Source of the DNA: Utricularia gibba
Lineage: Eukaryota; Streptophyta; Magnoliopsida; Lamiales; Lentibulariaceae
Assembly: GCA_002189035.1 (NCBI GenBank)
Contig: NEEC01000013.1
Span: forward strand, 2,542,001-2,606,000
Length of the DNA: 64,000 nucleotides
Direction of reading: 5' to 3'
Shown: in pieces, positions 18,635 through 63,280 of the stretch
Layout: each line of letters opens with the position of its first letter
How positions within the stretch are numbered: the stretch's first letter is position 1
Program-made: the position numbers and the translations under genes
The notes under the pieces: model-generated
The model's database searches: none
What the model was told of the DNA's origin: nothing
What the model saw: only the letters and a program-made list of their open reading frames with translations

Positions 18635-20595
18635 ATGCATCATCTTCTGTTGAGTAGTGAAAGAGCTCTACTCTCGGTATTCTTAAAATCAAGGAGCTTC
18701 GGGTGCACATCCTACATTTGCATCATTCAGAAAGAATATTGGTTCTCTGTGTCAGACACATCTTCTTCATTTCGGAAATTGGGGAGCAGAGGACTCAGTA
18801 ATTTATTATCATGCAACAAAGACATTACCTCCTATATCCGTTCTGGGGACTTGGACTCAGCAGTCCAAGTCTTTTTGGGTATGAAGATAAGGAGTACAGT
18901 CACTTGGAATTCTCTCTTGGCTGGTTTATCAACCAAACCCGGGAAGCTAAAAGAGGCAGAAGACTTGTTTGGTAGAATTCCTGAACCTGACACAGTTTCG
19001 TACAATGTGATGTTGTCCGCTTATTTGAATAATGCTTCCTTGGATGCTGCAATGGATTTCTTCGATCGGATTCCTTCTAAGGATATTGCATCTTGGAATA
19101 CAATGATATCAGGATATTTGAAAAATGGGAAAGTGGATGATGCTGAGAAATTGTTCAGTGTTATGCCTAGAAGAAATTTAGTGACTTGGAATGCAATGGT
19201 TTCAGGTTACGCAGAAGTTGGTGATATGGAATCAGCTCTATGTTTTCTTGAAAGGGCTCCTGTGAAGGATGTTGTTGCATGGACGAGTATAGTAACGGGG
19301 TATATGAAGAGAGGGATGGTTGAATTGGCCGAAAAGTTTTTTCAAGAAATACCTTCCAAAAATTTGGTAACATGGAACACCATGATTTCTGGTTATGTTG
19401 AAAACGGCAGAGGAGAAGATGGTTTAAGGCTTTTCAAGCAGATGTTGGTATTGGGTATGAACCCCAATCCATCAACCTTCAGCAGCATTCTTTTGGCCTG
19501 TAGCAGCTTTTCACTTTTGAAGTTTGGAAAACTGGTTCACCAGTTGACACTCAAATCTCCATTATACTATTCAGGCACTACGATTGGGACTTCGTTGGTG
19601 AGCATGTACTGCAAGTGCGGGGTTTTGGAAGACGGATGGAAACTGTTCACAGAAATGCAACATAAAGATATAGTGACATGGAACGCAATGATCTCAGGCT
19701 ATGCTCAGCACGGGGTTAGTGATAGAGCTCTGTATTTGTTCAATGAGATGAGGGCCGGAGGTACGAAGCCAAACTGGATTACATTTGTTGGGATTCTATC
19801 GGCTTGCAACCATGCAGGATTAGTAGATCTTGGCAAGCAATATTTTCAGGAGATGCAGAAGGACTTGGGAATCAGAGCAGAGCCAGATCACTATACCTGT
19901 ATGGTTGATCTTTTCAGTCGAGCTGGTAGGCTTGAGGAGGCAATGGACTTGATCAAGAACATGCCATTTCAACCACATCCCGCGATATACGGGACTCTCC
20001 TGGGGCCTGTAGGATACATAACAAGTTAGAAATTGCTGAGTTTGCAGCCGCCAACTTGCTCCATCTCGAACCTGCTAACCCTGCTGCATACGTGCAACTT
20101 GCAAATGTCTATGCAGTGAAAAAGAACTGGAGAGGCGTTTCTCGTGTATGGAGGTCGATGAAAGAAAACAGAGTGATGAAAACACCAGGATGCACATGGG
20201 TAGAAATAAAGAGCAGGATGCACGAGTTCAGATCAGGAGACAGACTCCATCCTGAACTGGAGATCATCCACAACAAGCTCAGGGAGCTTGAGCCAAAGAT
20301 GAAGCTCGCAGGTTATGTTCCTCATCTTGAATCTTCTCTGCATGACATTACCGAGGAACAGAAAGAGGAGCTGCTTCTCTGGCACAGCGAGAAACTGGCT
20401 ATAGCTTATGCACTGATCAAGGTTCCACCCAGCGAGGGGGCCATCAGGGTGTTCAAGAACCTCAGAGTTTGTCAAGATTGCCATGTAGCCACCAAATTCA
20501 TCTCTGCAGTTGAAAACAGGGAGATCATCGTCAGAGACACCACAAGATTCCACCATTTCCGACATGGAAAATGCTCCTGTGGTGATTACTGGTAA
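18635..20595 (+). CDS. DYW-class PPR protein (At4g16835-like), frame broken once
   Basis: Intronless PLS-type pentatricopeptide repeat gene; allowing one frame change it encodes 653 residues. Repeats with the signatures [28 protein letters not shown] and [20 protein letters not shown] fill residues 60-460. E/E+ segments and a complete DYW deaminase follow: [12 protein letters not shown] (the HxE zinc/catalytic site), CQDCHVATK and the terminal CSCGDYW. The N-terminus looks like an organelle presequence; the recalled homologue is annotated as mitochondrial. Expected role: site-specific C-to-U editing of organelle RNA. The first frame stops at 20029, while the family sequence ([17 protein letters not shown]) continues in another frame. 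One G is missing from the run at 20002-20005. See findings: probably a sequence error, but a null allele cannot be excluded. Confidence 0.88.
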
Positions 20596-21479
20596 CCAGT
20601 CAGGTGTGATCAAATCAAAATGCTCCTTCAGAACAATCCATTCCATACATTCATTCTCATCTTAAAAATGGCATTTTTTTTTCCAAAAAATAATTTTTTT
20701 TATTTTTGGAGTTATTTTGCTAAAATTTCAGTAAAAGAAGAAAGGGGCCCCACATCAGTAGGTTTGACTTTCAAAACCCTTGGGAGAGGGCACCTTCAAT
20801 TTGGTGTGGTTTCTGTACAATTTTGACTTTTGAAAATCGCGCGTGGTTTTATTCCACAGTAGACTTCGAAACCAAATAATCTCTCATTGGATATTTATTT
20901 TTTGTGGGTTCTTTCATGAGTTTCCAAATTTTGAAAAAAAAGCCAAATTTTATATTGAATTAATAAATGAATTTTAATGTTTAAAAAAAAGAAATTATGA
21001 AAATGACATCCAAAAGTGGCCAATTGTGTTTATTTTTATAACTATCGCATTCATATTTTACAGTAACCCAGAGATGGCAGAGGGAGGCACACCTTGCTCT
21101 GAATCAGATGCTCTGTGTTCTGTGTCTGAAGGTGATATACGAAGGAGAATAGTCACCAAAACGACTGTAAGAAAATTCGTGACGTACAAATTAGAAAGTT
21201 CAAAAGTGAAAAAGGAAAGGTGGAAGTGATTGTGGGTGGAATCTTCGTCTAAAGAGATTGGTTTCGGCAGTTTGATGGGGCTCCGTTGATTGGCGAGTTT
21301 CTGCGTGGGGTGCCTTCTTTTCATTTGATGGGCATCAAAAGATGGAGCTTTCTTTATCCTCCTCGTTTTTTTTTTTGCTTTCCTAACGATAGTACCTGAG
21401 GACGTTGAAGTTCTTAGCTGCACTTCGTGTTTCAGGGCCCCTTACCGAGATTAAGACTAGTCACTGAGTCATATTGTAG
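20596..21479. other. Spacer before the SYTF-like gene
   Basis: About 880 bases holding the PPR 3' flank and the promoter/5' UTR of the next gene. It is AT-rich with A and T runs. I see no gene. Confidence 0.5.
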
Positions 21480-24400
21480 ATGGGCAAAACTAGGAAGCTT
21501 ATTAACTTTGATGGGGCGATGATCGATTTGTATAAGTTGTTGGAGGAGAATCCCCTGCTTCCAGGTTTGATTCCTTTGTTGATACTTCTTTGGGCAGTTG
21601 AGAAGTGGGTATTCTCTGTCTCCAACTGGGTTCTTCTTGTTCTTGCCGTGTGGGCTACACTGCAGGTTTCTCCTCCAACTCTGCCTCTGTTTTCTCTTGT
21701 TGTTCTCTTTTTTGTTGTCTCACTGCTTTTTGTTCCGCTGATAATGGAATAGCGAGGGTTGGAACAAATCACTATCCAAAGTGTCCTTTCGATATGATTG
21801 TTAGTTTGTTGATGTCGTTTCTTGGTAGAGAGAACTATAAGCTTTTAGAGGGTGGAGGTCGAAAACTTACATTGGTTTTGTGTTTGGCAGCATGGGAACT
21901 ATCAGCGAAGGATTCTAGTGGAAAATTTGAATAAGAAATGGATGCAATTGACTCTGCAGACTTCTGTAATTTTTCTTCTTTAATTCTTAAGTTCCAAGTT
22001 CGCTTCTTTTTGAAGTTTCAAATTTATCGTTTTTGCATCTACTCAGGACAAAACACCTTTAGAGCACTGTGAATGGCTGAACAAGCTGTTTATTGAAGTT
22101 TGGCCTAACTATATTCAGCCAAGACTTTCTCAGCAGTTTGCATCTATAGTTGAGGCGAGTACCATTCCCGTATATTTTATTTCACCTGTACAACCCAGAG
22201 TTTTCTTAATGCATGTTTTTTCTCCATTCACGGAGCAGAGACGTCTGAGGCATCAAAAGTCGAGGTTCATTGTAAGTTGAATATTCTACCAGAACTTTAA
22301 AGGTGTTCCTGTTGAGTTATTGACTGAAAAGAACACATACAGGAAAAGATTCAGCTGCTAGAATTTTCTCTGGGTTCACGGCCTCCTGTACTTGGTCTGC
22401 ATGGAACCTATTGGGCAACATCTAGAGATCAGGTTTTCATATATATTAATTGGTGATCATATATCATTATGTGCACTAGATTGTTTGGAAATGCTCATGT
22501 ACATTTATTTATATGCTTTAATATGGCTTTCTGCATTTAAACCAGCGCATCATGCACACCAGTTTCGACTGGGATGCAGATGATGTGAATGTTTTGATGC
22601 TCGCTAAGTTGGCTAAACCACTTGGAACAGCTAAGATTGTGGTGAACAGCATCCACTTGAAGGGTCATGTAGGCATCAAAAGCTCTTCTGTCGCTTCCAC
22701 TGTTTGTTAGTTCCTGCCCATGCATTCAAGTGTTCTCTTTCATCTGTAATTTGCAGCTTCTTGTGATGCCAATATTAGAGGGAAAGGCGCTGATATACTC
22801 TTTCATTTCGACTCCGGAGATCAGACTCGGTGTTGCCTTTGGAACTGGTGGAAGTCAATCTCTTCCTGCAACAGAGCTTCCTGGTGTTTCTTCGTGGCTG
22901 GTAATCTCCATAATGCATTGTCTGCTCTGGGTTGTTCTCATACATATGCACTGTTTCTCTAATTAACTTGCCCTCCTATTGCCATGATGTTTTCCCATCC
23001 AATGCACATAATTTATCGGGGATGTTATTCACCTCTTCTGAAACTTCTCCATTGCTTTATAGGTTAAACTGGCTACTGATACATTGAACAAGAGGATGGT
23101 TGAGCCTCGGCGTCACTGCCTTGCTTTGCCAGCTCTAAATTTGCACAAAAGGGCAGTTGGTGGTGTTTTGTATGTAACAGGGTTGTCTGCTGAAAATCTC
23201 CAGTGTTCGAAGCCATCTGCAGATACATCCACAGATGATCACATTGAGACATTCTTGGAAGTTGAGCTTGAGGAGCTAACAAGGAAAACAGATACAAAAC
23301 CAGGATCTTCTCCTCAATGGGATTCCACTTTCCGTCTTATGCTTCATAGTAACACTGGGATTCTACGGTTTCATGTGTATAAGTGCAATACCGATAATCT
23401 AAAGTATGACCTTCTTGCAAGTTGTGAAATAAAGGTAAATGACAGTTGCCTTCAGATTCTATTCCTTAGAATGGCTGATGAATTTTGAGCAAATGCAGGT
23501 GAGGTATGTAGCAGATGACTCAACCATATTTTGGGCCATTGGAGCAAATTCATCAGTGGTTGCTAGGCGTGCCGAGGTGTGCGGCAAAGAAGTTGAAATG
23601 ACTGTTCCATTTGAAGGATCTAATGCAGGAGAGGTACTTCTTCCTTTTCCTGCCTGTAACACCAAAAGTGTGCTTCAATACTAAATTCCGAAAGCATCTT
23701 TCAGTTGACAGTGAAGGTTGTGCTTAAAGAGTGGCTTTATTCTGATGGCTCACGTAGCTTCACCACTACCAGAGAAAGCTTGCATCACTACCCGAGTAGT
23801 TCATCAAAGCTTTCAAAAACAGGACGGAGAATCTATGTAACAGTTGTGGAAGGTAAGGACTTTCCTGTGAAAGACAAGCTTGGAAAATCGGATCCTTATG
23901 TCAAACTGCATTATGGAAAGGTATATAAATGTTTTTTCTGTTCTTCATCACACTCAAGGGGACTAAAAAAGGTCAGCCATATTTCATCCTGCATCCTTTT
24001 CACTTCAGACTATAAAACGAACGGAATCTGTCCCGCGTTCCTCCGAGCCAACTTGGAATCAGAGGTTCGAATTCGATGAAGAAGACGGTGAATACTTGAA
24101 AATCAAGTGCTGTACTGAAGAAATGTTCAGTGATGAAAGTTTTGGCAGAGCACGTTTGAATCTTGAAGGGCTTGTGGATGGCGGTGTTAGAGATGTTTGG
24201 ATTCCTCTAGAAAAATCCAGTTCTGGGGAGCTGCGGCTACGAATTGAAGCTCAAAACTTGGGAGACTATGAACATGTAAAGGTAACAACTGCAGCTCAAT
24301 ATGTTTATTTATCTACTTCCCAAGCATCTATTGATCAGCTTCTTTCTTTTTCTTGATGGAGGTTCAGGGCTCAACTAATGGATGGATCGAGCTCGTTCTG

Positions 24401-25204
24401 ATTGAAGCAAGAGATCTTGTGGCTGCTGATCTTCGAGGAACAAGCGACCCATATGTTAAAATACAGTATGGGAATATGAAGAGAAGCACCAAAGTCAGTT
24501 AGTTTCCTTGAACCGGAGGCTTCCTCTTTTTTTTTTCCCCACTTTTTTTGTTCAGTTCAGATGAACTAACTCCAGATGCATATTCATCCAGGTTGTTCCC
24601 AAAACTCTGAACCCGAAATGGCATCAAACGTTTGAATTTCCAGACGATGGTAGCCGGCTTACACTGACCATAAAAGATCACAACGCATTGTTGCCAGAGA
24701 CCGCAATAGGAGACTGTGTTGTAGATTATAACATGCTGCCTCCAAATAAAATGGCCGAGAAATGGATACCGCTCCAAGGAGTTAAAAGGGGAGAAATCCA
24801 CATTCAAATTACAAGAAAAGTAGGTGAACAAGAAACTGGACCGCACATCTCCAAGGCTTCCTCCAAGTCTTCTGAAGAACTTAATCGCCAGATCTCTGAT
24901 CAGGTTTTGTGTTAAATCAGTGAATTTAATAGTACGGGATCACAGTTATCAAGATTGGTTTCTCTTTTTTCTTGATGCGCAGATCAAGGAAATGTTGATG
25001 AAGATAAGGTCCCAAATGGATGATGATGATGTTAGTGGTCTATCTGAGACGGTGACTGAGCTTGAAATTCTGCAGGACTCACAGGATGAATACATTACCA
25101 GGCTTGAGACAGAGCAAAGGCTGATGATTGACAAAATAAATCAGCTTGGACAAGAGATTTTCCATTCCTCAGCTCCTCTGCACAGAGTTGAGAGTGCTCC
25201 CTAA
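21480..25204 (+). CDS. Membrane-anchored SMP/C2-domain protein (SYTF/NTMC2T3-like)
   Basis: Fourteen exons: 21480-21665, 21891-21965, 22047-22154, 22239-22271, 22343-22432, 22546-22668, 22757-22900, 23063-23434, 23499-23633, 23705-23920, 24009-24281, 24368-24493, 24592-24903, 24983-25204; 804 residues. An N-terminal hydrophobic hairpin (LLPGLIPLLILLWAVEKWVF, then NWVLLVLAVWA) precedes an SMP-type lipid-transfer domain (PLEHCEWLNKLFIEVWPNYI to the TELPGVSSWL region). C2 domains follow; two have clear cores GKSDPYVKLHYGK and RGTSDPYVKIQYGN. A C-terminal coiled coil ends the protein. It matches Arabidopsis At3g18370 (SYTF) throughout. Plant relatives tether the ER to other membranes and move lipids there. 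Exon 12 could start six bases earlier. Intron 3 begins with GC. A polyadenylation hexamer lies at 25268-25273. Confidence 0.92.
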
Positions 25205-25687
25205 GCTCTCCTTGTCTCTATGTAGTTGTATATTACATACATGTATCCTCATAATCACGTAACACACAATAAAACCCACATTGGTAGTTAGATGTGAATT
25301 CTGTAGTTGAACATGTTCATGAAAAATAATACAAAAAGACATACATCTTCATATGAAAAAAAAAAAAAAAGAAATATATAATCTGGTTGAAAGGTTAAAT
25401 CTTCAGAATAAAGATGAAATTTGCGTTAGATTTTTTGCATATATGGAGAATACTCAGAGTATAAGGAAAAAAGATGATTACATTACACTTGGTCACTATC
25501 GTAAAGCAAGGGCAAGCGCCGTACAGAGATCCGGTACTCCATCTAGAACAGATTGGAAAAGGGAACAAATTCGAAAGATGAAGATGTAGCAACGACAGTG
25601 TAAAAATCTGCGGCTCTCTGTTAGTAGTTAGAGAGGAGGGAAAGCTTAAAGACCTAGAAACACTTATCCATCAGATGGCTGTCAAGT
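25205..25687. other. 3' flanks of convergent genes
   Basis: About 480 bases between the SYTF-like gene (+) and the bZIP gene (-), including an A-run near 25358. A short open frame at 25353-25589 has no homology I recognise. Confidence 0.5.
25268..25273 (+). terminator. Candidate polyadenylation signal of the SYTF-like gene
   Basis: AATAAA 64 bases after the stop codon. Plant signals are loose, so this is only a plausible near-upstream element. Confidence 0.35.
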
Positions 25688-27996
25688 TCAGTGACCATCT
25701 TCTTCCTCATGGCTTCCTTTATGGCCTGGATGTTCACCGAGTCTCTCCTGCCGAATCTTGAAATGTTAAATCGAATCCAGTGGCAACCATACGAAGAAAC
25801 TAAGGAATGCTGGAAGATTTTCCATTTCCCTACCTTGAGGGAAGCATTCTGAGACAGAAGCTGCTCATATTCACTCTTTAAGCGAGTGATCTCAGCCCTG
25901 AGAGACATATTTTCCTCTTTTAGAGCTTCAGCACGTTGGGCAAGCTCATCACATTCCGCCTGGATTGCAATGCAACACAACAGTCAGGAAAATATACCCG
26001 AACTTGAAACACATACAGGCGTTTCAGGGCACAACTTACTTGCTTACGCAGTCTTGACCTCCGGGCAGATTCCCTGTTAGATTGCTTTCTTCTCTGTCTT
26101 TTGAGCTCTCTTTCGTCCTGGATATTAAACATATAAAAAACAATGATGTACACGAAAGATGCAATTTCAATTTATTTTACAAATTCCAACTCTTTAACAG
26201 ATTCGTGTAAAGAAAAGCGACCTGAATCCACATCTGTGACTGGATACCATCGTGTGTGCCAGGAGCAACCACTCCTCCAGTTACTGGTGCAGCCGGGACC
26301 TTTCCATGCATTGCAGGAATAGTGGGTGATGTTGCGGTGCCCCAGTAGTCAATTCCAATATTCAAGTTTGTTTGTGGGCCAGGAATGCCACTAACAGCGC
26401 CTACTGCAGGAACAGGCACAATCGGAACAGTTTGCCCTATCATAATATGAGGGCCACTAGATCCACCATTTTGTGAGGTTGAACCGTTTTGAGACGGCTC
26501 TTCTGTTGCTGCTTCCAAAGTAATGAAATAAATTTAGGTGGTTAAAGAGTAATAAGGGCTAAAATAGAGTGCAAATTCCTAAAGAAAACCTGAATCTGGT
26601 CGATCAGAAGACTTCACTTGGGATTCCTGGAAATCAAATTAGAACAAGTAGATCAAAGAAAATCCTAACGAGCAATGTCAATTAAAAAAATTATAACTTC
26701 CACTTGAAGGTAACATCGGGGAGCCAGCTTCATGGATGAACTCCACATTCAAGTGAAAGATATGTAAATCGCCGACTTCAAAAGCAAAACTTACATGTTG
26801 GGAATTCGCATCACTCCCTTCACTTGACCCTTCACTTGCACTCTCATCACTGAAAATTAGTTAACACATGAATTGAAAATTAAAAAGAATGTGGAGGCGC
26901 AATATGAGAAAATTGGGTAAATTTGACACATCAATAACGTACGAACTTTTGCGTCACTCAAGGTTCATTTACCTTTTTGAATGAGCACCATTGGCTACTG
27001 CACCTGATTCATTCCCACGTTCATTTTTTTTCCCAGTTATCATATTTAAACTACCCAAACTTCCCTTGGATCGCTTAATGGGTAACTTTGCTTTCCCTTC
27101 AGGTGACTTGCCGTCCACTTCAACACTAGGCCCAATAACCTTCACAGACATGCAAGGAGAAATTGAATAATTACCAAGGAGGAAATACGGAAAAATATAA
27201 AAAGACAAATGCAACCACAAGGACTACTCACAGGGGCCTCAACAATACCATTAGACGAGGGCATACCGAATGGGCTAAAAGGGTAAGCTCCCTGAAAAAA
27301 GATAAAAAGATGAATCAGTAGAATAGGACTTCTTGAAGAATAGTATTATTAATCACAAATATTGATGAGCAACTACCGGGGTCATTGTTGGATGTGCATA
27401 TAAGCCTCCATGGGGATACATGGCAACGTATGGGTGTGGTGGAGGACCATAGGGTGGAATAAATTGCTATAAACAAGTCAAAATGGAACGAAAAAAAATG
27501 GTAAGGTAATGCTGCCACCTGGAGTAAACTCGATGAGAAGAATTGCAAATAATAATAATAGTATGCGACTCTTTTGCTAGATAAGAGAACCAAAAAAATG
27601 TAGAGCAAATGAGGCGGTTCATACCTGCACTCCCCACATGTACGGGTGCGCTTGAGGACTTGAAGCTAGGAAACCATGGGAGGCATGGGTGAATATGCCT
27701 AAGGGTATAATAGTAAGTACGCATGAGAATCAGATGCCCAGGAAAATGATTACGTAATGAGTCAACAACGTTTAAACATTGTAAACCTGAAAACCCGTCC
27801 AGTCAGCAGGAATTGCGCCTGAAGCAGCCGGTATCTGCTCCTGATACAACACGAAACATTTTCAATCTGGAAATAATAAATCTAGGAAAAAGAATTCCAT
27901 CGGACGTATGAGCAACAATGCCTGTGAAGTAGGAGTCCTTGCATCGTTTGCTTCTTTGTCCTCTTTAGAGGACTTATCCGCTTCACTACTACTCAT
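25688..27996 (-). CDS. G-box-binding bZIP factor (bZIP16/bZIP68/GBF1 type), frame broken once
   Basis: Twelve exons: 27922-27996, 27787-27840, 27625-27698, 27377-27466, 27232-27291, 26973-27139, 26795-26849, 26590-26626, 26222-26511, 26040-26117, 25834-25959, 25688-25747; 388 residues if the frame is continuous. The N-terminal half is the Pro-rich activation region of the group (ADWTGFQ, then HPYMWGVQ, then [14 protein letters not shown]). [20 protein letters not shown] precedes the bZIP. The basic region is [20 protein letters not shown] and the leucine zipper follows in exon 11. Family members bind CACGTG and act in light, ABA and redox responses. Exon 3 is 74 bases although both its borders are phase 0, so the frame breaks at 27678-27680 where one C (coding strand) is missing. 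Intron 1 appears to start with GC. Confidence 0.9.
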
Positions 27997-28876
27997 GATG
28001 TAACTTGGCACTTTCTTCTAGGTTGCTTCAGATATCCTGTCACAGTAACCATTTCCTCAGGTTCAGTGCATGCTTGCACAAAATCCTAACTTGCAGAACA
28101 TAAAACATCGGGCGTAGAGGAAGGACTTGTAAGTTATCTAGAAGAACCAATGATAAAAAACTAAGAAAAAAATCAGCCATTACTAGAGGTGAGAAAAGCT
28201 CCGACCAAACAAATTACTACCACAAGGTCTTAGCAATATTATCGACCGGAACTGCCTTACCGCAACTCTTTTTCCTGGATGATCACACAGAAGCGGAAAA
28301 AAAAAAAAGAAAAAGAAAAACTCAAAGCTACGATGTATCCAATAAAACAAGCCTAATTTTGGTGCTCACGGGATAAAGATTTCGACTTTGAATGAGAATT
28401 GCGTACCAAAGAGAGATTCCGCAATCCGAGTCACTGAACCAACTGACCACCGCCAATTCACCTGTTCAATAACTTACAAAAATCCAGAAACGCGTCCTCC
28501 TAAGTGGAACGAGCGTGGCCATGAAGGAAAAACTGACAACTCAGCTCAGGAATTTCCTCAAAACAGGGACAAATAATGTAGGGAAAACAGGCTTACGAAT
28601 CCAGGAGGAGGAAATTAGAGATCCTTCATGAAGATCGTAGGCATAATTGTGTCGTGGTACCGTGGATTTGCAGCGGTGGGAGGCAGAGAAGCCGATGTGG
28701 TGTCCACCGTGGATATGACGAACGGATGGATGATTGGACGGACGGGACGACCAGAGACGCGTTATCCAGGGCTGTAATTCAACCACGTATTCACCCTCTT
28801 TTCTGCCCTTATTTTTAGGGTTTTCTCCCCCAAGAAATCGATTATCTATTTGGCAAACACCACCGACGAATTTCGA

Positions 28877-28882
28877 CACGTG
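28877..28882. promoter_or_regulatory. G-box (CACGTG) upstream of the bZIP gene
   Basis: Perfect CACGTG in the flanking context GACACGTGAT, about 880 bases upstream of the bZIP start codon. This is the element that bZIP16/68-type proteins bind, so autoregulation is possible. It is inferred from the motif only. Confidence 0.4.
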
Positions 28883-29071
28883 ATGCACAAAATTATTTTC
28901 CTAAACAAATAATAAAATTTTTCTACGGTCCAAATAAATAAATAATATATACCCCCCTTTCATTTCATAAACATATCAAAATTCCCGATGCCACACCTTT
29001 TGTTGCTGGTGCCTTCTGAATCATCATTCAGCTTTACATCATACTCAAAACAAGCAGAGAACAAGTTCAAT

Positions 29072-29191: not shown

Positions 29192-29225
29192 TTAGTTCAT
29201 GAACACTGCACAGCAGAGAGCTGGA

Positions 29226-38650: not shown

Positions 38651-40404
38651 TCAACCCTCGCTCCCCTCAGGAAGTGTAATCAGACGTGTCTTGGAATCAT
38701 ACAACAGTTCTGTCGCGCAGCTGATGAGACAAGACGGTGGGATGATGAAACAAGGAAGCCACAATTTCACATGCCATTGGATGAAGGAAATGACTGACTT
38801 ACTTTGAGCATTTCACGGTGTTGATGGTTCCCCGCTGGATATTGAGAGTATGGTACCGAAGAAGGAATTGTTTTCAGTGCCACAGTTTGGACAGGGTCCC
38901 TGAACACAGTGAAGGCTCAACTTTCTTCCCACATGAAAACTGAAAGAAATGAGGGAAAGAAACTTGCCACCAAGATTAGAAAGTCTTTCACTATGAAGTT
39001 TGTTAGGGTGAAAGATAGCCACAGGATGACGGGCAAAGCAGCAAACCATGTGAAGAGGAAACTAAACGGCTCTGGGAGCTGCGTGAGGTATCAGCACCAT
39101 GAAAGCACCTGATGCATCTCATCTATCTGTATAGAAATAGATCTATCGGATCACTGTATTATTACCTCTAAGAGATATGTGATCTCAAAGCCAGTCAAGT
39201 CATCGAGAAAGAAAAACCTGAAAGAAGTAGGCAGGCAGCGCATTTCATGTTTTCACTCGAATGTAAAGTTTTTAAGATAGCTATATTTATAAACTTACAG
39301 TCCCAATGCAACAAATGCAGCTGGCACATTCAGTAGGAACATCTTGAGGTAATCAACAGAAAGGTCACTGTAAACCTGCAGAACAACATTGAAGGAGAAT
39401 GAATGGCAATTATAATTTCATACCACCGAGACAAGGGAAAGTGAGGATGAGTAACCTTTCGACTGCGGAGACTGCATCGAGGACCCTCCACCACTATTTC
39501 ACTGCCATCCTCCTACAAAATCCAGCATGCAAATAGACAGTAAACAGAACTGCAAAAGCTAGCAGTTTTAGACAAGATTACTGGGCATTGGATCATTTTC
39601 ATTCATACCTTAAGTTTCTGTTTCAACTTGTCAAACTCTTCATCGGACAAAATTGGATTCCCTGATGCATAAGCTATTGAAGCTTCTAGAAATCTCTGCT
39701 CATCAGCACCTATGCCAAGCCAGAGCATGTAAAACAAACTTCATGAGGCAACACCAAGAGCTTAATAAGCCCTTTAAGCCAGAGTATGGACCGAACAAAG
39801 CACTATAGAGTCAGATAATGCAACAGCAATTTACTTAGCATAACCACACTGCTTCCTTCCCACATAAGTTCTTCCTTGAGGTTGTCAAATTCCTCATTGG
39901 ACATGATAGATTTTCCCTCATAATAAAAAGCCTATTGTTCCGGAAAACATGATTAGATTTCAAGAATCAAAATAAAAAACAAAATGACGCCAAGATCTTT
40001 GGTTCCGTCACCTGCAGTGCCTGAAGGAATTCTTGTTCCATTTCACCAAGACTCCTTTTCTGCTTCTGATCAATGCTGCAATACGGCAACACATTGCTGT
40101 CAACAACTTCATCTTGTTTGACCTGGCCTGAAAATATACTGCCAATTCAACAATAGCCCAGCAAACAGTGTCCAAAAAACTAAACAAATTGGTTTGATCA
40201 TGAGTAAAACAGACCCGGTTGATCCGCAGTGGCCTTAGGGGCTACAACGAAAATCCGGCGGTGGAAGAACTGCTTGCTGAGGCGAAATTGAAGCTGAGGT
40301 GCAGCGGAGGGTAAAGAAGAAACATGAAAAATTGGGTTCCTGAAGTTGGATGAAAAGTGGCTCCTCGGAATCGGTACGGCGCAGCCGAGAAGTTTCGAAG
40401 CCAT
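38651..40404 (-). CDS. PGRL1: PGR5-like protein 1 (PGRL1), frame broken once
   Basis: Ten exons: 40215-40404, 40012-40127, 39835-39931, 39609-39709, 39456-39512, 39299-39375, 39166-39217, 38971-39078, 38803-38899, 38651-38720; 321 residues if continuous. A plastid transit peptide (Ser/Arg-rich, about 55 residues) leads to the PGRL1 core: VLPYCSI, IMSNEEFDNLKEELMWEGSS, GNPILSDEEFDKLK, EGPRCSLRSRK. Two membrane helices follow (FLLNVPAAFVALGLFFF and FTWFAALPVILWLSF), then the Cys pairs GPCPNCG and KCSNC. Family knowledge: PGRL1 is a thylakoid partner of PGR5 in antimycin-sensitive cyclic electron flow, and its Cys residues respond to thioredoxin. Exon 9 is 97 bases where phase needs 98; one G (coding strand) is missing at 38830-38833, which as written removes the last Cys pair. 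Confidence 0.93.
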
Positions 40405-45548: not shown

Positions 45549-48500
45549 ATGGCTGAGGAAGCCAAGGCTAAAGGTAACGCTGCTTTCTCATCTGGAAATT
45601 TTGAAGAGGCTATTCGCCATTTCACTGCTGCGATCAATTTGTCACCCACGAACCATGTTCTCTACTCCAATCGATCCGCTGCCTACGCATCTCTCAGCAA
45701 GTACTCTGAAGCGCTTACTGATGCGAACAAAACTGTCGAACTGAAGCCCGACTGGGGAAAGGGCTATTCGCGTCTGGGTGCGGCGTATATGGGTCTGCAC
45801 AAGTATAGCGACGCCGTTTCCGCTTATTCCAAGGGTCTTGGGGTAGACCCAAATAACGAGGCGCTTAAGTCGGGGCTTGCTGATGCGGAGGCTGCTGTGG
45901 CTCGCGGTTCCAGGTCGAGAGGTGGGCCGGGGGGGAATCCTTTCGCCGAGGCGTTTGGACCTGAGATGTGGGTCAAGTTGTCGACGGATTCCACTACCCG
46001 TGGGTATCTTCAGCAGCCTGATTTTGTGAAAATGATGCAAGATATTCAGAAGGATCCGAACAATCTCAACATGTATTTGCAAGATCAGAGAGTAATGCAG
46101 GCATTGGGGTTTTGTTAAATATTAAGCTTCAAACACGGAAGCCTGAGGAGGACTCTGAGATGCCGTCCGCTGAGGAGTCTAGCAAGGGGACACCGGAAAT
46201 GAAGAGGCCTGCAGCTGCGGAGGCTGAGCCAACGAAGGTTCAGAAGAAAGCGGAAATACAGCCTGAGCCTGAGGAAATGGACATACCAGATGAAGATAAG
46301 GATACACTGCAGAAGAAAAAGGAAGCGTTGAAGGAGAAGGAATCTGGCAATGCTGCATATAAACAAAAGAATTTTGAGTCAGCAATTCAGCACTATTCCA
46401 GGGCAATTGATCTTGATGACGAAGATATTTCCTTTTTGACTAACCGTGCTGCTGTTTACCTCGAAATGGGAAAGGTACAGTTTGTTGCCGCATTTCTTTT
46501 TTTGATCATAACGATCCTCATATTTATTGCTGAAAATCTGTTAGACGTACAGCAGACAGTTCTAGATAGTGCTTTTCCTGACATGATTTTTTCTTTGGTT
46601 TTTCACTCTTTGGTTTTGTCGTGTATACATGGCCGTACCTTAGACTGTACAAGGTAGCGCGCTTGATCTAATTTCTGCTGAAATCGTTGCAATTGTGCGC
46701 AAGTGCCTTGCATTTGTATGTGCCACAGTTGCAGCTGGTGAATCTTGCCTTGCTGACCCATGTAGTAGGATTCCCTTGAGCAGCTCCGTTTCCAACAGCT
46801 TATGCGCATAAGTGTAGAATTTGTCTTGTTTTACAAGCACGGAGTTATTCTCATCTCCTTTTTTTCCATATGGGTGCTTATTTCCTCTTTTGAGTGTCAA
46901 ACTATGAATATCCCAAGCATTAATCTATGAGTCTCTTGTTGATTTTAGAGTTTTTTAAAAGGTGAACAGTACACTGATATGGTACGCCTATGTAATAGGT
47001 CTCATTACTTTCACATTTACTGATTGCCTTTGTGATTCCTCTTGTTTCTCACTCATTGGTTGGAGGGAGGGCTCAGTGCTGTAGTCACTTGGGGTTAATT
47101 TCTATGCTGATTTGTAAAGGATCGCAAGCTATATCATTGCTAACGTACATGTTTTCACTTACAGTATGAGGACGCTATTGTGGATTGTGATAAAGCTGTA
47201 GAACGGGGTAGGGAATTGAGATCAGACTTCAAGATGATAGCCCGGGCATTGTCCAGAAAAGGAACTGCCTTGGTTAAATTGGCCAAGTGTTCTAAGGACT
47301 ATGATCCTGCCATTGAAACTTTTCAGAAGGCTCTCACAGAGCATCGCAATCCTGATACTCTAAAGAAATTGAATGATGCTGAGAAAGCAAAGAAGGACCT
47401 AGAACAGCAGGAGTACTTCAATCCTCAAATAGCTGATGAAGAACGCGAAAAAGGTGTGAAGCTAATTCGTCGTATAACATAGTTACAGTATTTATCTCAT
47501 ATTTCCAACCTTTCAGCATTTTCGTTGGTTTTCACATCATGTAGGAAACGAGTATTTTAAGGAACAGAAGTACCCAGAGGCTGTGAAGCAATATACAGAA
47601 GCAATAAAAAGGAATCCGAATGATCACAAGGTTCGTAGTGTATTTAACTTGTATCTTCTATGCGTTGGTAGAGCCTGGATTCCATGAATTGTGTGTTTGT
47701 TGAATGGTAGGCATACAGCAACAGGGCTGCATGCTACACAAAACTTGGTGCACTGCCCGAAGGGCTTAAAGATGCTGAAAGGTGCATCGAATTAGACCCT
47801 ACTTTCTCTAAAGGCTATACCCGGAAGGGGGCTGTCCAGTTTTTCATGAAGGAGTATGATAAAGCTTTAGAAACATACCAAGAAGGCTTGAAGCATGATC
47901 CTCAAAATCATGAGTTGCTTGATGGTGTCAGGAGGTACCCTCTCCCATTTTGTAACGGGTTGCTTAGCTTATTCTATTTTTTCACGTTTTCATGTTTGCG
48001 ATCTATCCTTGTAAGTTTATCTTGCTTTCAAATATTACTTAGAAGACGATGCGAACAACCTCAGTCTATTGTTTTTGTTGTTGACTTCTTTGTCTGTTGA
48101 TGCTAGTTTGTACTTGACACTGCGCCAATTGTGCAGATGTGTGGAGCAAATAAACAAAGCCAGCCGTGGAGATCTAAGCCCTGAGGAGTTGAAAGAGAGA
48201 CAGGTTTTTTATACATACATGCACACATGATTGTAGCAATGTCTACCAGATGGTAACTGAATTTACGTGTCTTTTAAAAAACTTCAGGCAAAGGCAATGC
48301 AGGACCCAGAGATCCAAAACATCCTGACAGACCCTGTAATGAGACAAGTAAGTGGGATTCAGATTTATTACCTGCTGAGAGCTCAATTATCCATCTGCGC
48401 CGAAAAAGATAAAAAGCAGAGTGGAATGAATGCTGATGGATAACATGGTATCGGAACGCAGGTGCTGGTCGATTTGCAGGAGAATCCAAATGCAGCGCAG

Positions 48501-48575
48501 CAGCACATGAAGAACCCACTCGTGATGCACAAAATTCAGAAATTAATCAGTTCAGGAATTGTGCAAGTGAGATGA
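45549..48575 (+). CDS. HOP: Hsp70-Hsp90 organizing protein (HOP/STI1), frame broken once
   Basis: Seven exons (45549-46474, 47165-47453, 47545-47630, 47711-47934, 48137-48203, 48288-48347, 48462-48575) encode 588 residues if continuous. TPR1 (AKGNAAFSSGNFEEAIRHFT onward) is followed by DP1 with LQQPDFVKMMQDIQKDP. A charged linker, TPR2A (KEKESGNAAYKQKNFESAIQ), TPR2B (EYFKEQKYPEAVKQYTEAIK, then GYTRKGAVQFFMKEYDKALE) and DP2 (ILTDPVMRQVLVDLQENP) complete the standard Sti1 layout. HOP bridges Hsp70 and Hsp90 in the cytosol during client transfer. In exon 1 the frame as written stops after QALG at about 46117; one G is missing from the run at 46106-46109. With that base, GVLLNIKL continues as in other HOPs and exon 1 becomes phase 0, as exon 2 requires. 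Confidence 0.94.
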
Positions 48576-55203: not shown

Positions 55204-56306
55204 AGCCGGTGTTATGTGTTGTGTGTGTTTCGGTTTGGATTTATTCATTTAGAGTGCAGTAAATGCATTACTTATTTCATACAATTGTTTGATAATAATT
55301 ATTAAATAAATCAATTCTATTTAAAATTATGTTTATTTTCAAACAAATGTTTTAAAATATTTATTACTTTCAAGAAGAAATTGATATCTTAAGAAAGAAA
55401 ATAGATCCTTTTTTGAATTCTTTATGATTTTGCACTTAATGTTTTAAAAATTTTTGACTCATGAATTATTCATTAAAATGATTTAATTAAATTCAAATAA
55501 ATTTAAAATATAATAAAATTAATCATGATTCAATCATAATTTAATTATATTTTGATATTTACACAGCATTCGTCGTCAGTCGTCACCATCCTCTTGGGCT
55601 CCCCTCAAAGCAGTCGGAAAATACAGACAACAGCAGGCAGCAGCATCCATGGAATGGCATTTGAGTTGATCTTCTTCAGAGGAGTTGAATATCCCGCCGA
55701 CTCCTCCTACCACTGCGTGATCGCATCTCGCATCGCATGTAGCCTAGCGTAGGCAACCCCCCATGGTCGATGTCGATTCCTCAGATGCATTCATGATGAC
55801 AGCAGCTGTCTCTCTGTCTCTCCCTCCTCCAAAAGGACTTGGAACTGGGTGCACTTAATGACTTTGCTGCTTGCTTGCTCTTTCTTTAACACAGTCGCCC
55901 ACGTGTTCCGCTGCGCTGCCAACAAAGAAGAAGAACGGAAGGAAGAAAGAAGATCCACTTCAAATTTCGAATTCAAATTCCTCCATTTCTTTCTTTCTTG
56001 AAAGAGAGGTTGCTGCGGGCAACTGGGTCCCGCATCGTACGGTCTACAGTGGGACCACTGCACGCTCCCTACAACTAACGGGTAGCATGATCCAACGGCG
56101 GAGAGTCCATCCATTTCAAATCCTTGTTTTCCCCGCTCTTGGAGAAGCCAACTAGTACTAGTATAATGCCCCCCCACCCTCCCCGCCTGCCTTCTTCGCC
56201 GGAGCGTAGCTTAACTGATTTTGTGACGCTCCGTTTCTTCCTTCGATTCCACTCTATCGTCGTCGTTTTTTTTTTCTTCTGATTTTGGGGAGTCTGCTGG
56301 GCGATA
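55204..56306. other. Divergent promoter region between NRAMP and cyclin A1
   Basis: 1.1 kb. AT-rich DNA lies near NRAMP; GC-richer DNA toward the cyclin carries a CACGTG at 55910-55915 and two AACGG cores at 56077-56081 and 56094-56098. I see no gene. Confidence 0.55.
56077..56098 (+). promoter_or_regulatory. Pair of MSA-like elements before cyclin A1
   Basis: CTAACGGGT and TCCAACGGC lie 17 bases apart, about 210-230 bases upstream of the cyclin start. Both contain the AACGG core of the mitosis-specific activator element bound by three-repeat MYB factors, which drives G2/M expression of plant A- and B-type cyclins. The second matches the longer consensus better. Confidence 0.55.
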
Positions 56307-59118
56307 ATGGCGAGTAGACGCTCTACGACGTCGTCTTTGGCGAAGCGTCATGCCTCTGCATCGGAGAATCCTTGCAAGGCCGTTGCGCCGGGGGAGCTCT
56401 GAAAAAGCGCCCGGCGCTTGCGAATATTACGAATAACCGGCAGCCGTCTGCTACGGCGGCTGGATTTGTACCCGATACATCTAAAATCGTACGTCTGACT
56501 TCTCGCTCCATGTTTTTTTCGCCTTTTGTGATTCCTTAAAGATGCTTATAGGGTTTCGCCTAGTACGTATCCAATGGTGTTTGATTCAGGAAAGTATGTT
56601 AAGGACGGTTGGGTGATGATGCAGCATTTTTACGTCATTGGGGTGGTTTCCCCCGGTTCTTGATTTGTTTGTGTTGATGTGCGTCTGAGAAATGCGCAAA
56701 ATCATCAGGTGGCTGTGAATTCTGAGTAGTGCTCTGAATTCTGACTAGTGAACTGACTTATCCTCCATGTGTTTCCGCAATGTATTGCTTAGGAAACTGA
56801 CAAGCTTTTTTGTCTGCAATTTTGAAGCAGGCACCATGTTCTAGCAAAATTTTGACCATCCAGAAGGCTCCTTCATCTTCATCAAATCCCAGTTCATCGG
56901 CAGTAGCTATTCCGCTCTCTAATTGCGCTGGGAAACCTGCAGTATCTGTTATCCCTAAAGCCACTTCTCTTCCAAGAAGTGATGCAGTTATCCCCAACAT
57001 TGGTGTTACGGCCAGTTCGTGCGGAGTGGAGGTATCACTCAATAGTTCAGATTCTTTCTCCAGTTCCATGGATGAATCAACATCCAGTTGTGATTCATTA
57101 AGGAGCCCAGATATTGAATATATGGATAGTCGACAAAATGAAGCAGTTGATTTTATAGAGCAGAAGACATCTTGCATGCTTAGTATTTCAGAAAATTTGG
57201 AAACTCCTGCAGGTTCTGCGTGCACCTTAGTATTTTAAAGCTTACATTTGGACAAGATTGCATTATAAACTCTTTAATGTATGCAGGAAACTTGTGCAGG
57301 CGTGACGTATATGCTTCCGGAGAATCATGCGACCAGATTGTTTGCGTTGACGACAACCTGGATGACCCACAGTTGTGTGCAGCTATCGCTTGTGACATTT
57401 ATAAGCACCTGAGGGCATCAGAGGTAATGTTCTGTTTCTAAATCAATGCAAATTGATTTTTTCTCCTAGTATTCTGATGGGGCTGCCTGTACACGTTTTA
57501 GTGATTCCTTTCACTACGTTCCTCAGGCTAAAAAACGTCCCGCTACCAATTTCATGGAGAGGATCCAAAAAGACATCAACGCGAGCATGCGAGGCATCCT
57601 TGTTGACTGGCTTGTGGAGGTGAGCATTTCTCTGGAGATTTATTGAATTCTACTCTTTTATGAACTCCCCCATCTGCTCATGTAGCATTTGCTATTTTGC
57701 TTGAGGCCCTGAAGAGATCTTATTTGCACTGTTTGTTTCACCAGGTAGCTGAGGAATACAGACTGGTTCCCGATACCTTGTATTTGACAGTGAACTACAT
57801 CGATCGCTATCTCTCTGGAAATGCTATGGATAGGCAAAGGTTGCAATTGCTTGGTGTGGCTTGCATGATGATTGCAGCGTAAGATTCGTCCGTTTTGTTA
57901 CTCTGCTTGATAACTTGTTGATCCTGGTTACTACTACTATGATAACTTGAATTCCATAGTCTAATTTATATGAACTTTCAGAAAATATGAAGAGATATGC
58001 GCGCCTCAAGTGGAAGAGTTTTGTTATATAACAGATAATACGTACTTCAAGGACGAGGTGAATTTCTCTCTCCCCCTCGCGGGTTTAACCTTATTTTGAA
58101 TTGTAATGCCCATTTATTATGCATATGATGGATCGGGGTCCCGCAGGGTAGCCTTTCGCTTTCCCTTGCCTAGAGGTCTTCTTCTTTTAACGTTTTTCTA
58201 CCAACATCAATTGTTGAAGTTTCAATCGATACTTTTAAGGTTGCTTTTTTTCAATCCATGGTTTTAGTTATTGATTCTGGAAGCAATAACAGCAGTCACA
58301 ATTAATGTTGAATTTACCAGGTTTTGCAAATGGAGTCTAGTGTTCTGAACTACCTGAAATTTGAAATGACAGCTCCAACAACTAAATGCTTCTTGAGGTA
58401 GTGTCTGTGCTCAATCCTTTTCTGATCTCCTCAATGACAAAAATTAATGACTAGTTATCTTCGTGTCAACGGTTTCTAGGCGGTTTGTTCGTGCAGCACA
58501 AGGTGTCGATGAGGTATGTTAGTTCCTCCTGACTTCTTCTTGAAAATAAATTACGTATCTTCATTGATACTGAACGTGCATTCGGTTCCCTATTGATATT
58601 GAAGACTCCATCGTTGCTGCTGGAGTGCCTAGCAAACTACGTCGCCGAGCTTTCGCTGTTGGAGTACAGCATGCTGCGATTTGTACCTTCGTTGATAGCG
58701 GCCTCGTCAATCTTCCTGGCCAGATTCATTCTTCTTCCTTCTAAGAGACCATGGGTAGGCATTCGCGTGGTCTACATTGATTTCCCAGAAATTTTTCCTC
58801 ACGCTGGGTTTAATGCATTTCAGAACCCCACCCTGAGCCATTATACTCTCTACAAGCCTCATGACTTGCGGGACTGCGCTTCGGCATTGCACGGGCTCGT
58901 CTGCAACAACCACAACTCAACTCTACCCGCCATTCGGGAGAAATACAGCCAGCATAAGGTGAGCGCAGCACCCTGAATATTGCTCACTTGCCCATCATTT
59001 CATACTCCAAACTGACAAATTGCTCTCCCTTTTTGTCCCGAACCAGTACAAGTTTGTTGCAAAGAAGTACTGCCCTCCCTCCATTCCTCAAGAATATTTC
59101 ATCAACGAAGACAACTAA
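56307..59118 (+). CDS. CYCA1: A1-type mitotic cyclin (CYCA1), frame broken once
   Basis: Eleven exons: 56307-56488, 56831-57212, 57287-57423, 57527-57619, 57745-57878, 57982-58057, 58321-58397, 58480-58513, 58605-58754, 58824-58958, 59047-59118; 490 residues if continuous. The cyclin box holds MRGILVDWLVEVAEEYRLVP, YLTVNYIDRYLSG, LLGVACMMIAAKYEEICAPQ and VEEFCYITDNTY, the A-type signature. The C-terminal cyclin fold has LECLANYVAELSLLEYSMLR. A destruction box RPALANITN lies near residue 40, just after the frame break: exon 1 as written stops at 56401, but one extra G in the run at 56390-56394 restores GGALKKRPALANITN and the exon phase. It partners CDKs in S to M phase; A1 cyclins also act in meiosis. 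Two MSA-like sites upstream support G2/M expression. Confidence 0.92.
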
Positions 59119-59250
59119 TCGCAGCAGCAGCAGCATAGCTTCCACCTTCTGGTGATTGACGACATGCTCAAGGAACCAAAATCAGCCCCCTCAAGTTGAT
59201 TGCAGATTCCTTTTCAGCTTCCATTGGATATTTCATAACACCATTAGATG

Positions 59251-61377
59251 TTACATGAGTAAGTCCCTCCTACCACCACTATTATTCAGCATGGACATAG
59301 CACATGGTAAAGGCTTCTCAAAGCCACACATCTCCGAACCGACCAGGCTGTTTCTTGAACTCAGCCAATGGCAGTCATCGAACGAACATCTTGAACCACC
59401 GGTGATCCTCTCAACGTCAGCATGATCCGTAAACACAGGGCCCCAGGATGGAGTCCCATCCTCATATGCATTGTGTGTCAGTCTCTGTATCCCCGATCCG
59501 TCCGACTTGATCACGAATATGTCTCCGTAGGGCTGCCAGCTATGGGGGCTGGAGATCGGCTCAGCCGAGACCGCGGCGTAATCCGAAGTCACAACAATGT
59601 GCTCACCATCAGGGCTGAACCATGGATGGTTCACCCTCCCGCCTTCACCACTCTGGAGCAACTTCTGGAGTCCCGTGCCGTTGGGGTGCACCTTGTACAG
59701 CTCGAAGCTGCCGGACCTCGGGTTCCTCCGGTCGGAGGACAATGCGATCCATTCCCCGTCCGGCGACCAATTACACATGGTGTCCGTCCATGGACCATCA
59801 GTCAACTGATAGAGGCCACCTTCTTCACCTTCCAAGGCGTCCATGATGTATAAGTTCTTGTGCCCCGATCGACTGGATCGGAAGACGACCCTCTTTCCGT
59901 CCGGTGACGGCGACGGGAAGGCGTTGTTTGCCCCGCCTTGGGTTAACACGTTGTAAGTGGGTTCTTCTTCATCGTCCACATTGATGGATATGATGTCGAC
60001 ATTTGTGCTCACACCAGCGAATGTTGGTCCCATACTCGTGTAAACTACTCCCTTTCTCTTCCAATCCCACGCTGTTGTAAAGGCTTGCTGATCCAGAATT
60101 TTTCTGAGATTTGATCCATCGCTGTTGCTGACATACAGACCGGAGTTCACGAAGGCGATGCGGCGGCCATCCGGCGAGTAGGATGGGAAGGATCCATCGA
60201 CTCGGAGGAGCGAGGTGTTGGGAAGCGGGCTTCGAATGTTCTCGAGTAGAAGATTGTTGTCGTTTTCAGAACCTCTGCAGCGGTGGAAGCCGATCCATTC
60301 AGAATCCGGTGAGATAAACGGGTTGTAGTGATGGGTTTGCGGTGAGATTGGCCGCGTGACCTCGATGAATTTGTTTGACACAATGTCGTAGATCTCTATG
60401 TGGCGAAATTCCGATTCGGGTCTTCTTGTGGCGACGGCGAGGATGCTCTGATTGGAAACAAAGGCCGCTGGAGTGAAGGCGTGAACTCCCGGTGGGGTAA
60501 TACGGCGAATCACCGTTGATTCGGCGTCTGCGAAGTCAGCCCGGAAAACACTCCACCACCCATCTTCACATTTCCGGTGGAAATACAAGGCGGTGTCGTT
60601 AATCCAGCTCGGCCAACCTCCATGATCAACGAGCTTCACTCGTTTTGAGCCGTCTTCAGTAGAGAAAACATAGATATCGGTTTTGAGCTCCTGCACATCT
60701 CCGGGCCAATTCCGCGACCCATACGACGCCACAGCAGTCAACTCTCCGGAGGGAGAGACGGCGGGGCTAAAATCCGCCACTTTCTTCGGCGTCAGCCTCC
60801 TCGTCGCACCAGTTATCAGATTTATGGAATAAACCGCCGCCCAGCTCCGCCGCGGGAAACCAGGGTTCTCGTCGGTAGATACGTAGATCAGATTTTCTCC
60901 CAACAAACTCGGTTTGTCCTTCATCGAACCCCGCCCGTCCGATACTAAAGAAATCTGCACACGCGCCGCGAATTCGCTCCGAGTTTCGAGAACGCTTCTC
61001 GACGATCCCATCCCTTTACCACTGCTATACAGGTCGTCAAGGTAGATACCCCATGACCCATTTCGTTCAGAGACGTACAAGAAACGGGTCGCAGGGTCGG
61101 GCCCCGTGGAAGGGATGACGGAGAGCGATGATTGCCGAGGGAAATATCCGTTATAGTTAACGGACTTGCCGTCAGAGAGACGTAGTTCTTTGATGCCACC
61201 GCCGCCGCCGGCCGCCGGGACGGCGTAGATGTCAAAAGCGTAGTTTGCTCTTCCGACGGAGGAGAATGCTATGGTGGTGGCGCCGGTAACAGACGGTGAG
61301 GAGGATGAGAATGTGAAGAGGATCAGGAGCAAAATCATCGACTCCATTTTCTGAGCCGGTCTGCGGTTATGTTCCAA
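59251..61377 (-). CDS. Secreted TolB/DPP6-N-like beta-propeller protein (At1g21680-like)
   Basis: Single exon of 708 residues. A hydrophobic leader (MILLLILFTFSSSSPSVTG) indicates secretion; either Met1 or Met11 (61347) may be used, and Met11 gives the more usual signal peptide. The body consists of repeating propeller units of the TolB/PD40 type: FSPAVSPSGELTAVASYGS, YNPFISPDSEWIGFHR, SYSPDGRRIAFVN, AFPSPSPDGKRVVFRSSRSG, CNWSPDGEWIALSSDRRNP and PWFSPDGEHIVVTSDYAA. The set resembles Arabidopsis At1g21670/At1g21680, described only as DPP6 N-terminal-like. No peptidase catalytic domain follows the propeller, so a binding role in the apoplast is more likely than proteolysis. It diverges from OGG1 with only 204 bases between start codons. 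Confidence 0.88.
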   Translation of the reverse strand: MEHNRRPAQKMESMILLLILFTFSSSSPSVTGATTIAFSSVGRANYAFDIYAVPAAGGGGGIKELRLSDGKSVNYNGYFPRQSSLSVIPSTGPDPATRFLYVSERNGSWGIYLDDLYSSGKGMGSSRSVLETRSEFAARVQISLVSDGRGSMKDKPSLLGENLIYVSTDENPGFPRRSWAAVYSINLITGATRRLTPKKVADFSPAVSPSGELTAVASYGSRNWPGDVQELKTDIYVFSTEDGSKRVKLVDHGGWPSWINDTALYFHRKCEDGWWSVFRADFADAESTVIRRITPPGVHAFTPAAFVSNQSILAVATRRPESEFRHIEIYDIVSNKFIEVTRPISPQTHHYNPFISPDSEWIGFHRCRGSENDNNLLLENIRSPLPNTSLLRVDGSFPSYSPDGRRIAFVNSGLYVSNSDGSNLRKILDQQAFTTAWDWKRKGVVYTSMGPTFAGVSTNVDIISINVDDEEEPTYNVLTQGGANNAFPSPSPDGKRVVFRSSRSGHKNLYIMDALEGEEGGLYQLTDGPWTDTMCNWSPDGEWIALSSDRRNPRSGSFELYKVHPNGTGLQKLLQSGEGGRVNHPWFSPDGEHIVVTSDYAAVSAEPISSPHSWQPYGDIFVIKSDGSGIQRLTHNAYEDGTPSWGPVFTDHADVERITGGSRCSFDDCHWLSSRNSLVGSEMCGFEKPLPCAMSMLNNSGGRRDLLM

Positions 61378-61581
61378 GTTAGTGCCTATCTATGTGAGGA
61401 GTGGTGGGCCCCCCATTAAGATTATTACAATAATATATTATTCTTAATTAAAAACAAAATCCCTTCCAAAATTAATTATATTCATCAAATATTTGACCTT
61501 TAATTGATTGGGTTTTTATTTGTTTATTATTATTTTTTTGTGAGAGCTGGCTGCCCCTCACAAGGAACGCCTCCTGCGAAC

Positions 61582-63280
61582 ATGAAAAGAACAAGGGGGA
61601 TTGCTCCTCCGCCGTCGACTCCTCCAACGCCGTCGCTGCGGAAGCCTTTCAGTAAGCACCTGGAGCCCATCTCCAGGAAGCGAGGAAATATCCTGCGGAA
61701 AGTGGTATCAATTAACGCGGTCGAATGGAAGAGCCTCGGCATCGACAAATCCGAGCTCTGCTTGCCGCTCACCTTTCCCACAGGCCAAACTTTCCGGTGG
61801 AAAAGTACTGGGCATTTACTGTACACGGGAGCAGTGGGGCGGCACCTCTTTTCGTTGAGGCAATTGGAGGATAACAGCATCTGGTACCATTGCCATTCCT
61901 CGGAAGACGAGGATATGGCGCGAAACCGTCTTTTTGATTTTCTTAACATGGGATCTCTTTGTGTGAGATGTGGAACGACTTCAAGGCTGCTGATCCCAGG
62001 TTTGCTGAGCTTGCCTTGTATTTGGAAGGGGCTAGGGTTCTGAGGCAGGATCCTTTGGAGTGCTTGATTCAGTTTATTTGCTCTTCCAATAATAACATTC
62101 AAAGGATTACTAAAATGGTGGATTTCATTTCTTCCAAGGGGAAGCTTTTGGGAATGTGGGAGGATATGACTTTTTTGAGTTCCCCAGTCTAGAAAGATTA
62201 GCTCTTCTCTCAGATTCTGAGCTAAGAGAAGCTGGTTTTGGTTATAGGTAAACTCAAGTACTTCCATCTTTTCACTCTTAGAGGCACAATTCATTAAATT
62301 CTGTTCAATTTGGGATAGCTATAGTATGGCTTTTTAGGATGATGTCTGTTATATTTATTTAATATAAGAATATTTGCATGTTTTGGGTTGGATAGTTTGC
62401 TTTTAAGCATGATGAGCTGCTACATTTACTTGATATGCGAATGCCTCTATGTTTTTATATATAATAGCCTACGCAAGCACGAGGATAAGGTAGCATGTCA
62501 AATGCCATGGTGTACAAATTCTGAGTATTTACAAGTTAAAAGACGAGCCATGGCATTTATATTGTGCGAAAAGCAAACCCAATTGCATGCATGTAGGGAA
62601 ACCAGGTATACTTTCCTGGTTTGCGGCCAATTCAGATATAACTTACGTAATGGTTGTCTTGTTTCTTCTGAACAGCAATGGTTTTTTTTTTTTTTTTCTG
62701 TTGTTAAACTTTTTTGGGCTTCCTTTGATCCCTTGGAAACCAAATGAACAGGGCAAAGTACATCGTTGGTGCTGTGGAAGCCTTGAGATCAAAGTCAGGT
62801 GGTGGTTCGGAATGGCTCGCTTCACTTCGTGAACTAGATCTTCATGATGCAATAGAATCCCTCTCCAGTCTACCTGGCGTCGGGCCAAAGGTAGCAGCTT
62901 GTGTTGCCCTTTTCTCATTGGATCAACATCAGTCTGTTCCAGTAGACACCCATGTGTGGAAGGTGAGGAGGATTGTTTCTCCTCTTCCTTGTTAACTTGT
63001 AGGAGAACCACACAGACTACAGAGCTAAATATGATATGTATTGCAGATTGCCACGAGGGATCTCCTCCCTGAACTTGCTGGTACCCGTTTCACTCCAAAA
63101 CTGCACAAGTATGTTGCTGAGAGGTTCATCTGCAAGTACGGCAAGTTTGCAGGATGGGCACAGACTCTACTTTTCATTTCTGAACTTCCTTCCCAAAAAA
63201 CAGCCATAATGCGGCTCGAAGGGGATACCTCCACAAAGCCAAGAAACACGAAAGATGAAAACGGATTGACAAGTGAATGA
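61582..63280 (+). CDS. OGG1: 8-oxoguanine DNA glycosylase (OGG1), frame broken twice
   Basis: Three exons (61582-62247, 62752-62962, 63047-63280) encode 370 residues if continuous. The N-terminal OGG domain includes LPLTFPTGQTFRW; the core has GARVLRQDPLECLIQF, then CSSNNNIQRITKMVDF. The helix-hairpin-helix GVGPKVAACVALF supplies the catalytic Lys, and VPVDTHVWK the conserved Asp. The C-terminal block GWAQTLLFISELPSQK matches plant OGG1. It excises 8-oxoG in base excision repair and nicks by beta-elimination. Exon 1 changes frame twice: at 61950-61952 (FDFLNMG to ISLCEMWNDF) and at 62150-62152 (KLLG to NVGGYDFFEFPSL). Each needs one more G. With both, exon 1 gains the phase 2 end that exon 2 needs. 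As written the product would lack the catalytic domain. Confidence 0.92.

Follow-up and report, generated by a model that had tools for sequence, protein, structure and literature searches.

Six conserved genes within one stretch of the Utricularia gibba genome lose their reading frame by a single base at short runs of G or C. Are these genes broken in the plant or only in the assembled sequence? The window, as we call the whole 64,000-nucleotide stretch analysed here, spans C375:2542001-2606000 of genome G000, an assembly of 100.1 Mb in 516 contigs, the largest of at least 8.5 Mb. A sequence-only reading had proposed seven one-base losses at G/C runs in six genes, and three-frame translation combined with motif location found each of them where it had been placed, in runs written with three to five bases (Table 1). 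The comparisons described below indicate that the breaks almost certainly come from a consensus that systematically undercalls short G/C runs, the genes being intact in the plant.

Table 1. Affected genes and frame-breaking sites, in window coordinates (a slash marks the break)
Feature	Position	Strand	Observation
PPR-DYW gene	18635..20595	+	Break at GGGG 20002-20005, GTLLG/ACRIH
Site 1, PPR-DYW GGGG, 1 base short	20002..20005	+	Insertion scoring by homology ranks this very run first
Site 2, bZIP16-like (GBF) exon, coding-strand CCC (GGG on plus), 1 base short	27678..27680	-	MPP/HGFLASS
PGRL1, ten exons	38651..40404	-	321-aa frame once one base is added
Site 3, PGRL1, coding-strand GGGG (CCCC on plus), 1 base short	38830..38833	-	Homeologue (L080/L081/L084) GGGGG
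HOP (Hsp70-Hsp90 organising protein), seven exons	45549..48572	+	588 aa after mending
Site 4, HOP GGGG, 1 base short	46106..46109	+	L085 (C255) GGGGG; L086 (C409) GGGAG
A-type cyclin, eleven exons	56307..59118	+	490 aa after mending; Pfam Cyclin_N/C
Site 5, cyclin A GGGGG, 1 base short	56390..56394	+	Homeologue (L092) GGCGGG
OGG1, three exons (61582-62247, 62752-62962, 63047-63280)	61582..63280	+	370 aa after mending
Site 6, OGG1 GGG, 1 base short	61950..61952	+	NM/GISL
Site 7, OGG1 GGG, 1 base short	62150..62152	+	LLG/NVGGYDFF; alternative place GGGG 62138-62141

Results

As had been claimed from the sequence, a single inserted base mends the frame: restored HOP, cyclin A, PGRL1 and OGG1 each form one full-length frame with GT-AG introns and clean exon phases. 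The further claim that the missing base is always a G:C pair is backed by a longer G run in the homeologue for HOP and PGRL1. For the cyclin A, bZIP, PPR and OGG1 sites a lost G:C pair is likely, the letter being uncertain at the PPR and OGG1 sites because these genes have no homeologue and protein homology fixes the place, not the letter. Residues 45 to 344 of restored OGG1 align to mammalian OGG1 at 9e-58 in a PDB search, across both mended places, and the protein carries the Pfam domains OGG_N and HhH-GPD. Pfam searches also recovered MFMR and bZIP_1 in the bZIP16-like gene and backed the identity of HOP with an STI1-HOP DP match. No Pfam match above the cut-off was obtained for PGRL1, which we take to be correctly named from its recognised family sequence. 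In our reading of the bZIP gene, the first intron within the coding sequence, at ∼27925 on the minus strand, would require a GC donor (CACAG/GCATTG).

Within the six broken genes we saw no in-frame stops or extra shifts, and they do not show the accumulated mixture of lesions (stops, indels of various lengths) by which a pseudogene is recognised. Reading by eye the other window genes (permease, LTP, lipase/GTPase-like, ACT-repeat, C2, REM, MINDY, EF-G, SKS, NRAMP, and TolB-like), which bring the coding sequence to ∼29 kb in all as estimated from exons, revealed no further frame shift.

Protein searches of the genome identified an inverted duplicated block on C255 carrying PGRL1, HOP, cyclin A, and bZIP, as well as a third HOP copy on C409. 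The block derives from genome duplication, with the 25-60 kb portion of the window matching G000:C255:1860593-1914929 in inverted orientation; OGG1 is without a second copy there, and a genome search found none elsewhere. In nucleotide alignments, the C255 homeologue has exactly one base more than the window at all four testable sites. For HOP, the window has GGGG versus GGGGG on C255 and GGGAG on C409, and for PGRL1 the homeologue likewise has GGGGG versus GGGG. For cyclin A the comparison is GGCGGG versus GGGGG, with C as the extra letter, and for bZIP it is CCACAT versus CCCAT, with A as the extra letter (L097 reads CCTCCACATGG and the window CCTCC-CATGG). Since the homeologue letters at these last two sites differ from those of the run, the lost letter there is unproven; an interrupting C or A in the homeologue would split the run and so shield it from error. 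The exons of HOP, cyclin A, and PGRL1 align over ∼4 kb, in which only three gaps have a length that breaks the frame; all three fall in the window copy, each at the run itself.

We surveyed the PPR-DYW family across the genome. From 73 DYW-domain matches we obtained 70 loci, most of them without introns, and homology to other members covered ∼130 kb of their coding sequence. The final tally comprises 68 full genes, the window gene included, after the introns of L024 and L026 and the fragments L073 and L074 were taken out. L024 and L026 had at first been counted as shifts and are introns. Sixteen one-base losses were found in 14 of the 68 genes, versus a single gain; nearly every frame switch is of the kind that a lost base produces. 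The losses are spread over many contigs and both strands, and the broken genes are almost free of other disabling lesions. A visual check places 14 of the 16 losses at a G/C run, among them that of L025, whose run counts only two bases in the assembly; the two L071 losses are ambiguous and not clearly in G/C runs. No base loss from an A/T run was seen in PPR-DYW coding sequence. The sole gain lies near 1555 in L066, where a run of six T must be shortened by one to mend the frame; L066 has lost a base at a G run as well.

Localisation was repeated blind, with every insertion place and base scored by alignment to at most eight homologues for 17 real cases, L030 and L073 among them, and with 250 simulated random deletions taken through the same steps as a control. 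The best interval touched a G/C run of at least three bases in 11 of the 17 real cases (65%) versus 16% of the simulated ones (binomial P = 8e-6), and a run of at least four in 6 of 17 versus 5%. A/T runs of at least three showed no enrichment, being touched in 24% of real and 36% of simulated cases.

Among runs of four or more bases, 11 G/C runs had lost a base and 384 had kept theirs, versus 0 and 1,237 for A/T runs (Fisher P = 1.5e-7, each loss having been assigned to its run by eye). A/T runs of this length are about three times commoner than G/C runs, and in intact genes they hold 4.2% of bases versus 1.2%. In the PPR-DYW sample the proportion of G/C runs losing a base was ∼0.06% at a true length of three, 1.5% at four (2% with L030 and the second L050 site added), 11% at five, and 1 of 5 runs at six. 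The effect is genome-wide and not a local cluster: losses occur once per ∼8 kb of coding sequence in the PPR-DYW genes and once per ∼4 kb in the window (7 in ∼29 kb), a roughly 2-fold difference that is not clear (P = 0.06), so that nothing special about the region is needed.

Two kinds of internal control were available. L073 (C4:2200500-2203100) and L074 (C409:1272380-1274980) are real decayed DYW fragments, copies of L021 and L008, respectively, and their lesions include stops, single gaps at scattered places, and longer gaps of 27, 9, and 5 bases, unlike the seven window sites. Genuine decaying pseudogenes likewise present frame breaks in recognisable genes, but with mixed indels, truncations, and stops that are absent at the seven sites.

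The second control is a small contig, C245 (G000:C245:33000-37863, L098), which matches part of C244 (C244:2408889-2414289, L099) with 99.6% identity. C245 is one base short at seven places in 4.9 kb, four in G/C and three in A, and the reverse never occurs; otherwise the two differ by a lone substitution and by repeat length in a few places. An allelic difference would be expected to give more substitutions, and losses in both directions. The comparison displays the error type directly, and A runs are seen to be not fully spared in this poorer contig. The earlier observation of no comparable shifts in A/T runs or outside runs holds within the window; genome-wide the effect is not strictly confined to G/C, given the T-run gain of L066 and the A-run losses of C245.

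A further apparently redundant contig pair, with identical match scores, is G000:C480:711932-713303 and C486:14973-16344. The lengths of C1, C2, C409, C505, and C507 (8,500,000, 6,192,500, 2,492,500, 3,452,500, and 642,500) are exact multiples of 2,500, unlike those of other contigs, as though a fixed step had been used to cut some of the contigs.

Discussion

The choice of undercalling as the best explanation, already made from the window sequence, is upheld by the homeologues at four of four sites, by the recurrence of the same losses in unrelated genes across the genome, by the differing lesion spectrum of pseudogenes, and by the comparison of C245 with C244. In the mechanism we propose, the long-read consensus would write one base too few at some G/C runs with a true length of about four or more, and each such loss in an exon would shift the reading frame. 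The chance of an undercall climbs steeply with run length, and in the coding sequence sampled A/T runs are spared. Raw reads should contain the longer runs, and the technology was presumably PacBio continuous long reads, polished with a tool of the Quiver type. The observed changes are of the kind that undercalling leaves, being single-base, mostly losses (16 versus 1 in the PPR-DYW genes and 7 versus 0 in the window), biased to G/C runs, found on either strand, independent of gene function, and present between redundant assemblies of one locus. Weighing against undercalling are the length of the runs, since three to four bases is short for a homopolymer error, and the L066 gain together with the two L071 losses, which are not clearly in G/C runs.

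Alternatively, slippage deletions in G/C runs could have inactivated the genes, or a single allele of each gene, possibly while selection was relaxed following genome duplication. Run slippage is a genuine type of mutation, and a second copy on C255 would make the loss of HOP, PGRL1, cyclin A, or bZIP tolerable, but OGG1 is single copy and yet has two lesions, and among the DYW loci fetched none is a close DNA relative or paralogue of the window PPR gene. Real deletions also fit poorly with the sparing of the more numerous A/T runs, with the imbalance between losses and gains, and with the absence of the other decay that marks true pseudogene fragments, and we consider them very unlikely. That the runs are correct as written, so that the plant truly carries thousands of one-base losses in exonic G/C runs that are either tolerated or mended in the RNA, seems to us exceedingly improbable.

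The sequence could also be correct and the frame be mended at expression, through programmed ribosomal frameshifting or transcriptional slippage. All breaks are indeed in one direction and at short runs, but by eye the seven flanks share only the run, the homeologues need no such step at the matching positions, and the mechanism would have to serve about one-fifth of DYW genes. To our knowledge, transcriptional slippage is known for long A/T runs and not for runs of three to five G, and we give this reading practically no credence. Nor do we attach more than a negligible probability to chance or reader bias, in which breaks would have been assigned to G/C runs only because such runs are easily noticed. 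Wide intervals do often contain some G/C run, and more than one place fits the second OGG1 site; blind scoring nevertheless retained the excess over simulated deletions, and for HOP, PGRL1, and cyclin A the gap in the homeologue alignments falls on the run.

Undercalling of this type is already known. Nanopore or 454 undercalling also consists of run-length errors that give rise to spurious frameshifts. Those homopolymer errors fall mainly in longer runs and affect A/T runs too, unlike the pattern described here, in which the A/T runs of coding sequence are spared. A U. gibba assembly was built from PacBio reads with HGAP at 88-fold coverage and has a contig N50 of 3.4 Mb (PMC5793159), which the size and contiguity of G000 fit. 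In one PacBio genome Quiver polishing left 205 indels, almost all of which were in homopolymers of G or C (PMC4832174). That genome, of Streptomyces albus SM254, was sequenced with PacBio CLR and shows the same residual G/C-homopolymer indels after polishing, which short reads corrected there; its G+C content is 73%, whereas that of the window is ∼43%, and the runs affected here have only four to six true bases (PMC4832174). In a limited literature collection we found no paper that links U. gibba with OGG1 loss or reports frame errors in its assembly.

An artefact of a known kind carries little scientific surprise, and the value of the finding is practical. Comparison with homeologues, combined with frame checks that take run length into account, flags such sites without new sequencing. 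In this assembly an ordinary gene finder would miscall about one-fifth of DYW genes as broken, and at the observed rates several thousand genes would appear split, truncated, or lost, errors that gene-loss studies would inherit. OGG1, a single-copy gene of oxidative DNA repair with two errors, would look dead, inviting a story of DNA repair loss in this plant.
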